Shown here piece after piece: positions 1-2,926 of a DNA stretch of 60,200 nucleotides; the stretch's first letter is position 1, and the number at the start of each line of letters is the position of its first letter. The stretch covers positions 1 through 60,200 of the forward strand of contig AKKQ01000006.1 in assembly GCA_000276965.1 (NCBI GenBank), written 5' to 3'. The notes below the pieces were generated by a model. It had not been told where the DNA came from and did no database searches. It was given only the letters and a program-made list of their open reading frames with translations. Source of the stretch: Thiovulum sp. ES (lineage in GTDB: Bacteria; Campylobacterota; Campylobacteria; Campylobacterales; Thiovulaceae). The position numbers and the translations under genes are program-made.

Positions 1-276
1 AAAAGACTTTTATTGCTTCATAAAAAACTAAAAAGCATGGGGTAAGCACCCATAGCTATTAAATCTAGCATAAGAATTTGGTTTTACTGAAATCAGCTAT
101 AAGCCCCCTTGTCATTGTCGGACTCGATCCGACAATCTTCTCAAAATGGTGAAGATTCCCGTGTCAAGCACGGGAATGACAAACAGAGTTTATGCCTTAA
201 TAATTCGGGCTTCATGCTTAAGTTAGTGGGGTAATTTAAAAATGTTAAAATTTAAAATCTTTCAAAAGGATTTTTT
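1..276. other. Intergenic leader with palindromic repeat
   Basis: No gene is supported in this stretch. It contains a 74-bp palindromic repeat (listed separately) and, just before the first gene, an AAAAGGA ribosome binding site at about 264-270 serving the ATG at 277. The first 60 bases contain a CCCATAGCTATT word partly echoed near 3006-3020. I see no tRNA or protein-coding remnant. Confidence 0.5.
110..183. repeat. 74-bp double-palindrome repeat, copy A
   Basis: Two inverted repeats in a row: ATTGTCGGA/TCCGACAAT (114-136) and TTCCCGTG/CACGGGAA (156-176), joined by a short spacer. Almost the same 74 bases recur at 55351-55424, and truncated versions lie inside the restriction-modification gene at 16601-16720 and 17101-17210. 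This is a dispersed small palindromic element. Whether it is mobile is inference. Confidence 0.85.
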
Positions 277-687
277 ATGAAAAAGTTTTTTCTCATTTTT
301 TTAGTTAGTTCTTCGCTTTTTGGTGGGGAACGATTTCAAATCTCTGGTGATCTCATCAAAGATTTCCGAACCGATTTGATGTGGCAAAGAGAAAGCAGTT
401 CCAACACGATGAATTGGAAAAGTGCCATTCAATATTGCGAAAATTTGTCTCTTGGCGGATACAGGGATTGGAGACTTCCACACATTGACGAATTGAAATC
501 AATTGTCAATTACAATGCATATAAACCAGCAACTTTTAACAGATTTAAACTAAAAACAACAGACTGGCATTGGGCTATAACAAAATATAATAATTCCAGT
601 TCTTGGATTGTCAATTTCAACGGTGGAGACGACGGTTGGGACCGTCAGGCAGACGATAGCTTTGCTGTTTGTGTCCGTGATTTATAA
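277..687 (+). CDS. Secreted DUF1566 (Lcl C-terminal, C-type-lectin-like) protein, probable diversified target
   Basis: A 136-residue protein with a signal peptide (residues about 1-17) followed by a single DUF1566 domain. Typical blocks are DLMWQ, the MNWKSA / YCENL / WRLP stretch, the DWHW motif and a terminal FAVCVRD. The same domain forms the C-terminus of the caspase gene at 1244-2926. The last 20 codons before FAVCVRD (601-660) differ from that paralogue almost only at first and second codon positions, while the following 22 nt (659-680) are identical. Domains of this fold are known variable proteins of diversity-generating retroelements, so this gene is probably such a target. No reverse transcriptase or template repeat is in the window. 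The ligand is unknown. The ATG is set by AAAAGGA upstream. Confidence 0.8.
   Translation: MKKFFLIFLVSSSLFGGERFQISGDLIKDFRTDLMWQRESSSNTMNWKSAIQYCENLSLGGYRDWRLPHIDELKSIVNYNAYKPATFNRFKLKTTDWHWAITKYNNSSSWIVNFNGGDDGWDRQADDSFAVCVRDL
601..680 (+). other. Candidate DGR variable region (VR1)
   Basis: In-frame comparison with 1254-1335 (reverse strand) shows tct tgg and gtc unchanged and ttt gct gtt tgt gtc cgt unchanged. In between, codon pairs such as ggt/aat, gac/aac, ggt/tat, cgt/ttt, gac/tac and gat/aat keep the third base and change the first two. I count 16 mismatches in 60 nt, 14 of them at codon positions 1 or 2, and every one can be explained by an adenine in a common template. The identical 22-nt tail (659-680) would be the homing-initiation side. 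Confidence 0.7.
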
Positions 688-688
688 T

Positions 689-718
689 CCCCGTATCGAG
701 TACGGGGCAAGTTTTTTT
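689..718 (+). terminator. Intrinsic terminator after the first DUF1566 gene
   Basis: Inverted repeat CCCCGTA (689-695) and TACGGGG (701-707) with a 5-nt loop, followed by a run of seven T at 712-718, one base after the stop codon. The stem also resembles the CCCGTG/CACGGG arm of the dispersed palindrome family, so the terminator may derive from that repeat. Confidence 0.7.
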
Positions 719-783
719 ATTTTTAGAATTTGATCAAGAGGAGATGACGAACTACTGAAGCAAATTAAGTATAAAAACTGGAA

Positions 784-804
784 TCCCTGAACTTGTTTCA
801 GGGA
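784..804. repeat. Short palindrome, CCTGAAC..TTCAGG family
   Basis: TCCCTGAA/TTTCAGGGA palindrome. Close relatives lie at 1135-1155 and 31123-31141, and degenerate ones at 1171-1197 and 1219-1245. These recur only in intergenic sequence here, mostly around the two DUF1566 genes. Confidence 0.7.
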
Positions 805-824
805 CTACTAAAATTAAAGTTAAT

Positions 825-1109
825 TCAGAATAAATCGTTTAAGTTGATTTCATCAAAGTTTGGATTTTTCTCTTTTATTAAATTGAATTTCCAATCTCTG
901 TGCCAATTTTTCAACTGTTTTTCTCTTTTGAAAGCATCATCAATATTTTCAAAATACTCAAAGTAAATTAATTTATCCAAATGATTTTTTGCCGTAAAAC
1001 TTGTTGGGTTTATTCTGTTTTTATGCTCTTCGATTCTTCTAAAAAGATTATTTGTTGCTCCAATATAAATCATACTGTTGTTTTGACCTGTTAAAATATA
1101 AACAAATCC
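825..1109 (-). pseudogene. GIY-YIG nuclease-like gene lacking a normal start
   Basis: From the first ATG (1073) this reads as an 82-residue protein of the small single-domain GIY-YIG family: YIGATNN, then RRIEEHK, YFEYFENIDDAFKREKQLK and a WK segment. Family members normally begin with a strand such as G-Y-VYIL a dozen residues earlier. Reading upstream in the same frame gives exactly that (GFVYILTGQNNS, codons 1074-1109), but the frame is then closed within three codons by a TGA and has no ATG, GTG or TTG. The upstream sequence is a palindromic repeat (1135-1155). The natural start therefore seems to have been lost by repeat-associated rearrangement. Either the gene is dead or a truncated product lacking the first GIY strand is made from ATG 1073. 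Confidence 0.6.
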
Positions 1110-1134
1110 CTCTCTCGTTCACTCTCCCTAGTTT

Positions 1135-1245
1135 ACCCTGAAACAAGTTCAGGGATACTGTTTTTTCAGTATATCCTGAATTAATTTCAGTATCAGGGCT
1201 TCCGTTTTCTTCATTTTTGATACATGCTGAACTTGTTTCAGTATC
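1135..1245. repeat. Cluster of three CCTGAA..TTCAGG palindromes
   Basis: Three related inverted repeats occur within about 110 bp: CCCTGAAACAAGTTCAGGG at 1136-1154, a degenerate one around 1171-1197, and GATAC..CTGAA..TTCAG..GTATC at 1219-1245. The last runs into the stop codon of the caspase gene. They could act as transcription terminators, but none has a clear T-run. Confidence 0.6.
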
Positions 1246-2926
1246 ATTTCAAGTCACGGACACAAACAGCAAAGCGATTGTATGTCTGAAATTCCAAATA
1301 GTCGTTCCCATTGTTGAAATAGACACTCCAAGAGTTGGAACTATTACTTTTTATTATGGTTTGTGACCAATGCCAATCGCTTTTCAAGTTGAAAAAGTTT
1401 GAGTCAATTGCAGGATCTCTTTTTGAACGATCCGCAAGATAATAAAGCTCTTCAATTGTTGGAAGTCGAAAATCTGAATATCCATCAATTGATAAATTTT
1501 GACAATATCTTTTGGCACTCTTCCAATTCATTTGATTTGAAGAACTCTTTTTTGTCCAAACAAGATTTGTGTAGTTGTCTTTGACAAGATTTCTTGAAAA
1601 TTTTGAATAGCTTCTTTTTCCTTTGAAAATCCGTTTGTCCCACTCACCTTTTTTTGCTTTTGAACTTTGAGAAACATAACCAGAAGAAGTGCCTCCAATT
1701 TTGTCAAGTGAAACATCAAAAGAGCTATCACTTTGTAAATCAACTGTAACCAATTTTGTGTAGTAGCCAGACCGTTTCACCTTGATTTTGTATTTTCCTC
1801 TTTCAAGCAAAATTCCATCTCGATATTTTGGTTTGATTTTCATAATATAAACTTGGCTATCTCTTGGATAGGGATTTATTGTTAAAGCTACTTTTGATTT
1901 TACAAGTTTTGCTATGAATTTTGTATCTTTGGAAATTGTGATATTTTTTGAAACTGTTTCGTATCCAGATTTTGAGACTTCCACCCGATAATTTCCACTT
2001 TCTAAAAGATCACCATTTTGGAAACGATTTCCATCAACTCGAATTTGGAAACCTGAAACATTGCTAGAAACTGTCAAGAAAAATTCATCTCGTTCCTCAT
2101 TTGAAGCTGTAAAAGTTGTTTTTCCTGAAACTCCACCAGCAGAAATAAGCTCCTCTTCACTCGGCAACTTGAAATAGAAATCACCCCGAATTAAATTGTG
2201 TGTTACGGGTGTCTGCTTTCCATCTGTTTTTTGATAAACATCTTTCCGAACTGCTTTGAAAAATCGTTCGATTGTTTGTGGAGTCTCAATATTTTTGACA
2301 AAAGCATCAGCAAATGGTGAAAGTTTTCCATCTCCATCGTGTGCAACTTTTCCACTCTCGGCAGAATAGGCTATGAAAGTTCCAGAAGCTGAAAAAGAGG
2401 CTAATCCACCTCTCTTTTTGTTTCGAGTTGATCTGTATGGATTTTCCCGACAAGCATCAATCACGGCAATATTTAGCCGTTTTCCTGTCTCATTCATCGA
2501 TTCGATAATTGGGTTGAGTGGAGTTGAACGATACGGAACATATTTTTCATCAGAAACTGAAATATCATTTGGAATTAGATAGTTGATTCCATTCACTTCA
2601 ATTCCGTGTCCTGCAAAATAGAAGAGTCCGACACCCTCTTTTTGAGAACGAAGAAGTGAATAGAATTTTCCTAGTTTCTCTTGCAATTCCAAATCTGAAA
2701 TATTGTGTGCCTCGATAACTGTGAAGTCTAAAGCTCGTAGTTTTTTTGCAACTTTTTTGACATCATTTATCGGATTTTTGAGCTTGTCAAAATAGTTGCT
2801 TTTGGAATAGGAACTGTTTCCAACAACGAGTGCCACTTTTGGCTCAGCTTTCATTTTCAACCTCATCGCACGGTCAAGTGAAAAAAGTGATGAAAAAACT
2901 AAAATAGTTAAGAGAAAAATTCTCAT
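1244..2926 (-). CDS. Secreted caspase (peptidase C14) - PEGA - DUF1566 fusion, probable diversified target
   Basis: A 560-residue protein. It has a signal peptide (about 1-16), then a caspase-like domain (about 30-255) with the YFAGHG histidine (His107) and the VIDACRE cysteine (Cys159), so the catalytic dyad is intact. Two PEGA-type beta repeats follow (about 282-335 and 347-410), then a C-terminal DUF1566 domain (about 425-560) paralogous to the protein at 277-687. The end of the gene (1254-1335) shows the adenine-limited divergence expected of a retroelement-diversified variable region. The divergent neighbour at 3137 encodes a DUF4384 protein, a domain often found with caspases. I infer an exported, ligand-triggered protease whose sensor is hypervariable. 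Substrate and location (periplasm or surface) are unknown. Confidence 0.85.
   Translation of the reverse strand: MRIFLLTILVFSSLFSLDRAMRLKMKAEPKVALVVGNSSYSKSNYFDKLKNPINDVKKVAKKLRALDFTVIEAHNISDLELQEKLGKFYSLLRSQKEGVGLFYFAGHGIEVNGINYLIPNDISVSDEKYVPYRSTPLNPIIESMNETGKRLNIAVIDACRENPYRSTRNKKRGGLASFSASGTFIAYSAESGKVAHDGDGKLSPFADAFVKNIETPQTIERFFKAVRKDVYQKTDGKQTPVTHNLIRGDFYFKLPSEEELISAGGVSGKTTFTASNEERDEFFLTVSSNVSGFQIRVDGNRFQNGDLLESGNYRVEVSKSGYETVSKNITISKDTKFIAKLVKSKVALTINPYPRDSQVYIMKIKPKYRDGILLERGKYKIKVKRSGYYTKLVTVDLQSDSSFDVSLDKIGGTSSGYVSQSSKAKKGEWDKRIFKGKRSYSKFSRNLVKDNYTNLVWTKKSSSNQMNWKSAKRYCQNLSIDGYSDFRLPTIEELYYLADRSKRDPAIDSNFFNLKSDWHWSQTIIKSNSSNSWSVYFNNGNDYLEFQTYNRFAVCVRDLK
1254..1335 (-). other. Candidate DGR variable region (VR2)
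   Basis: Counterpart of 601-680. The constant 22-nt block lies at 1254-1275 and the variable codons at 1276-1335. The variable side contains several NNY codons (AAT, TAC, TAT, AAC, TTT) that keep the third base of the paralogue. The divergence stops sharply at the constant block. Confidence 0.7.

Follow-up and report, generated by a model that had tools for sequence, protein, structure and literature searches.

We provide evidence, based on sequence comparison, that the 3' ends of two DUF1566 genes near the start of a Thiovulum sp. ES contig are very probably variable repeats (VRs) of one cellular diversity-generating retroelement (DGR) with multiple targets. Elements of this type serve bacteria to rewrite proteins that bind ligands. 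It is a known kind of DGR, and the unusual part is its target repertoire. The window, which is the whole stretch of 60,200 nt that was analysed, comprises the entire contig AKKQ01000006.1 (hereafter C6) of the ES draft assembly (206 contigs, 2.08 Mb, estimated 96.7% complete). A first-pass annotation had already read a DGR from the two gene ends; this reading is now upheld by a VR pattern common to 13 ES genes and by an intact cassette in Ca. T. imperiosus, a sister species within the genus. The features concerned are collected in Table 1.

Table 1. Features at the start of the window (contig C6), with positions as counted from its first letter.
Feature	Position	Strand	Remarks
Contig edge upstream of VP2, expected end of the missing reverse transcriptase (RT)	1..276	.	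No recognisable RT
VP2, 136-aa Lcl_C (DUF1566) protein, putative DGR target, apparent signal peptide	277..687	+	Lcl_C 92.8 bits
VR of VP2, constant block included	595..680	+	84% identity to inferred template
22-nt constant block of VP2, putative homing site (IMH)	659..680	+	20-nt core exact in 11 genome genes
Hairpin CCCCGTATCGAGTACGGGG, directly 3' of the VP2 VR	689..707	+	Single window copy
GIY-YIG domain protein	825..1073	-	PF01541 45.8 bits; similar ORF downstream of T. imperiosus VP2
VP1, 560-aa caspase-PEGA-Lcl_C protein, putative DGR target	1244..2926	-	Peptidase_C14 1e-31, PEGA 4.7e-11, Lcl_C 4.4e-25
VR of VP1, constant block included	1254..1339	-	Alignment with inferred template
22-nt constant block of VP1, putative IMH	1254..1275	-	

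Direct reading of the window confirms that the two gene ends share an identical tail of 22 nt, and that the 20 codons preceding it differ by 16 bases, 14 of which lie at codon positions 1 or 2, as the annotation had it. Its further claim, that every mismatch can be derived from an adenine, applies to 13 of the 16. The other three are off adenine when compared to the template inferred from 13 copies, and all of them are found in the caspase gene (T/G at -53, G/T at -23 and C/A at -19 relative to the block); the latter two could represent a compensating insertion and deletion. The 20-nt core of the block has two exact copies in the window, where none is expected by chance. The hairpin next to the VR of VP2 is also seen 3' of the stop codon in several other targets, and may be either a terminator or a DGR cruciform.

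As anticipated, a genome search with the constant block yields further DUF1566 targets, namely eleven genes besides the two in the window. The core TTTGCTGTTTGTGTCCGTGA is found 11 times exactly in the ES genome (0 matches there for a reversed control pattern) and with one or two mismatches in two more genes, which brings the total to 13 genes. All 13 copies end Lcl_C (DUF1566) domains, placing the VR at the 3' end of the target as is characteristic of a DGR. Across 59 related genomes the block was not found outside ES. Two truncated copies with 2 and 3 mismatches (C60:8475-8494 and C65:379-398) have no Lcl_C domain upstream and were apparently cut by insertion.

Variation in front of the block follows adenines to a striking extent. 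Within the preceding 66 nt, 27 columns vary in at least two of the 13 genes and each of the 27 includes A (permuted-label P = 6e-4). Three of the multiply-variable columns are third codon positions, all containing A, and the remaining third positions (including that of the degenerate codon GTC) are fixed or vary in one copy. Given that third-position variation is restricted to A-containing columns, selection at the protein level would not produce this pattern. The observation bears directly on an explanation without any retroelement in ES, in which diversifying selection on the lectin surface is combined with gene conversion of the conserved 3' end. The mostly non-synonymous changes in a ligand-binding domain would fit such a scenario, but the behaviour of the third positions, fixed elsewhere even in degenerate codons, makes it very improbable.

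The inferred ES template consists of TCCAAATCTTGGATTGTCAATTTCAACAATGGAAACGACAATTGGAACAATCAGACAAACAATAAC followed by the constant block. Relative to it, 178 of the 189 differences in the 13 VRs are on adenines (mostly A to G) and 11 are not, a count that is not independent since these copies had also served to infer the template. A similar tendency is observed for the paralogues C86b and C96: their upstream 195 nt are 93% identical, and 18 of the 87 VR bases differ, 16 of these at template adenines.

In Ca. T. imperiosus the full cassette is located on one contig. It consists, in this order, of a caspase-PEGA-Lcl_C gene (VP1), a gene for a 119-aa Avd-like protein, a non-coding template repeat (TR) situated between Avd and RT, a 351-aa RT with the motifs GNLTSQ and YVDD, a 140-aa Lcl_C gene (VP2) and a GIY-YIG-like ORF. 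The match of the Avd-like protein to Avd models is weak and below the cut-off, and its position is the expected one. Both window genes have their counterpart here: the caspase-PEGA-Lcl_C architecture of VP1 is the same, and VP2 shares 69% identity with the gene after the RT. Six of the seven T. imperiosus targets are caspase fusions. With the real TR, the four clean VRs (those with an intact block) mismatch at 33 of 100 adenine sites against 1 of 164 others (Fisher P = 6e-15); for all seven VRs the numbers are 68 of 175 at adenine and 19 of 287 elsewhere (P = 2e-17). Near-identity of TR and VR except at TR adenines is therefore observed with a real TR in T. imperiosus, and in ES with the inferred template only. 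That the same genus has a cassette which looks functional and whose TR matches also argues against selection with gene conversion.

Related cassettes are found in Sulfurovum, Campylobacteraceae and Arcobacter MAGs (some on short contigs), where TR/VR windows of 60 nt contain 0 non-adenine mismatches; the Sulfurovum RT has a 142-aa Lcl_C gene directly behind it, as the T. imperiosus RT has VP2. Many DGRs are phage-borne, and the element might accordingly belong to a phage or prophage instead of the cell. We hardly give credence to this option: viral contigs were searched and none has an RT relative or the exact block, the ORFs neighbouring the T. imperiosus cassette look ordinary chromosomal by inspection, and cellular effector domains are found in the targets, whose genes are dispersed.

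A comparison of the inferred ES template with the T. imperiosus TR shows 16 differing sites out of 84, of which 14 are third positions. At these 16 sites the ES state is present in all 13 ES VRs, and the T. imperiosus VRs show the state of their own species (more weakly so in three diverged copies). Since the constant bases of the VRs are species-specific, homing went on after the species split in both lineages. They are thus a sign of recent homing even with the RT absent from the assembly. That constant bases track the species and not the gene is again difficult to reconcile with selection and conversion.

The first-pass annotation had placed the RT and TR elsewhere. Both are intact in T. 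imperiosus, but the 206-contig ES assembly contains neither. No RT was found in this draft with RVT_1 or with the T. imperiosus RT, and a TR search of the ES genome with the inferred template recovered nothing beyond the 13 VRs, a partial copy of 33 nt and short matches. Avd candidates obtained with bAvd and the T. imperiosus protein were rejected, as these are weak matches in an unrelated 296-aa protein and a TnpB-like region. Because the ES genome is a draft, this outcome differs from a complete genome without RT or template, which had been named as evidence against a DGR.

Most likely, ES retains an RT and TR adjoining window position 1. The distance between the RT stop and VP2 is about 270 nt in T. 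imperiosus and C6 begins 276 nt before VP2; given that the contig starts about where the RT should end, both elements are most likely located just off it. Moreover, 8 of the 13 ES VRs are no more than 1.3 kb away from a contig end. In the ES locus VP1 and VP2 have opposite orientations with the GIY-YIG gene between them, unlike the arrangement in the T. imperiosus cassette. The locus has therefore been rearranged, and the argument from gene order is not proof. Within the contig edge itself, the 14 open codons at window 1-42 were considered as an RT C-terminus and discarded (the resemblance is loose and the stretch too short), and window 109-221 is a dispersed palindrome-containing repeat with about 20 places in the genome.

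The main rival to a location just off the contig is a genuine and recent loss of RT and TR in ES, in which case the VRs would have been left behind by a DGR that was still working shortly before sampling. RT, TR and Avd are indeed all missing from an assembly estimated to be 96.7% complete, and T. stygium provides an example of the same kind of loss: its closed genome contains a dead cassette (L113:6788-8592, contig C1 ~722787-724591) with two Lcl_C genes flanking a broken Avd and an RT of which only the C-terminal portion is left. As T. stygium lost its RT, such loss does occur. Nonetheless, we consider it rather unlikely for ES. The constant positions of the VRs are almost free of drift (11 non-A against 178 template-A changes in the 13 copies that also supplied the template), the C6 sequence breaks off near the expected RT position, and the majority of VRs are close to contig ends. 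The best RT matches in T. stygium bear a QGGILSP motif, which is typical of group II introns rather than of retrons or DGRs. For the Movile Thiovulum, a transcript analysis described highly expressed 'retron-type reverse transcriptases' linked to phage infection (PMC9938260).

Among the ES targets are three caspase fusions, one of them the caspase-PEGA-Lcl_C protein of the window, as well as a UvrD-like helicase that has GajB-like PADLOC matches, a pair of long proteins that are uncharacterised and a protein in which the Lcl_C domain occurs twice; others are shorter or contig-cut. The helicase (C40, L145:1554-3644) is fused to a DGR-variable Lcl_C tip; no GajA-like ORF was seen nearby, and its neighbours include Bro-N/RhuM-type ORFs. 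On C25 (L134:2743-5126), a coiled-coil ORF whose Lcl_C tip is DGR-variable lies directly downstream of ZorB2-like (230 bits) and ZorA-like ORFs. An A7 run marks the break between the coiled-coil and ZorA-like ORFs; this break may be a sequencing error within one gene, and a ZorA-like motor protein is probably the fusion partner of this tip. We refrain from calling C25 a Zorya system, since strong ZorB2 matches also occur in several related genomes and such a system would need a type-specific partner gene besides ZorA and ZorB.

The proposed DUF1566 lectin scaffold is well founded: Lcl_C is present in all 13 targets, the best sequence-profile and Foldseek match of VP2 is the C-terminal domain of Legionella Lcl (8q4e), and Foldseek also matches C-type lectins. 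Although the VP2 structure model is modest (mean pLDDT 69.7, lowest over the variable stretch), these predictions support a C-type-lectin fold for the C-terminal tips of the targets. The L. pneumophila Lcl domain is regarded as a structural relative only, without claim of common function.

According to the mechanism that we propose, a DGR RT, assisted by the accessory protein Avd, would reverse-transcribe the non-coding TR (the inferred template sequence plus constant block) and make errors at its adenines. The cDNA would then replace the 3' ends in at least 13 genes dispersed over the genome, homing at the constant block and presumably acting in trans on remote targets, and residues of the C-type-lectin tips would be randomised as a result. 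The caspases, helicase and motor-like protein to which these tips are attached may use them for sensing or binding. It might even be argued, as a tentative idea that we hold with some doubt, that a single trans-acting DGR supplies one rewritable antigen-sensor tip to many effectors (among them caspases, the UvrD-like helicase and a ZorA motor protein of Zorya-like type), and that a veil-forming bacterium could thus possess a pre-diversified immune repertoire from one template. One template with 13 dispersed targets and several defence-like fusions bears on the proposal of DGRs as antigen sensors in aggregating bacteria.

DUF1566, remote, orthocaspase and conflict-system targets have already been described for DGRs (PMC6642488, PMC7517822, PMC10907252). 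Searches of the literature, with most subscription journals outside their reach, returned no paper for Thiovulum with 'diversity-generating' and a review only for Zorya with DGR. The cellular DGRs of the multicellular bacterium Thiohalocapsa PB-PSB1 (nine loci, 15 targets; PMC10907252) resemble the Thiovulum element in that C-type-lectin targets are tied to caspase-like or other conflict-system domains, loci are degenerate and targets are apparently diversified in trans; they differ from the one inferred template for 13 targets, the Campylobacterota host and the Lcl_C (DUF1566) lectin in ES. DUF1566-type DGRs (PMC4159848, PMC6642488) have the same variable domain family, and a single TR serving several VRs is known among them, whereas host lineage and attached effector domains are different. 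Cyanobacterial DGRs (PMC7517822) likewise have dispersed remote targets, caspase-type N-terminal domains (orthocaspase in cyanobacteria) and a VR that forms the 3' end of a C-type-lectin domain; apart from the host lineage, ES adds the helicase and ZorA-like fusions.
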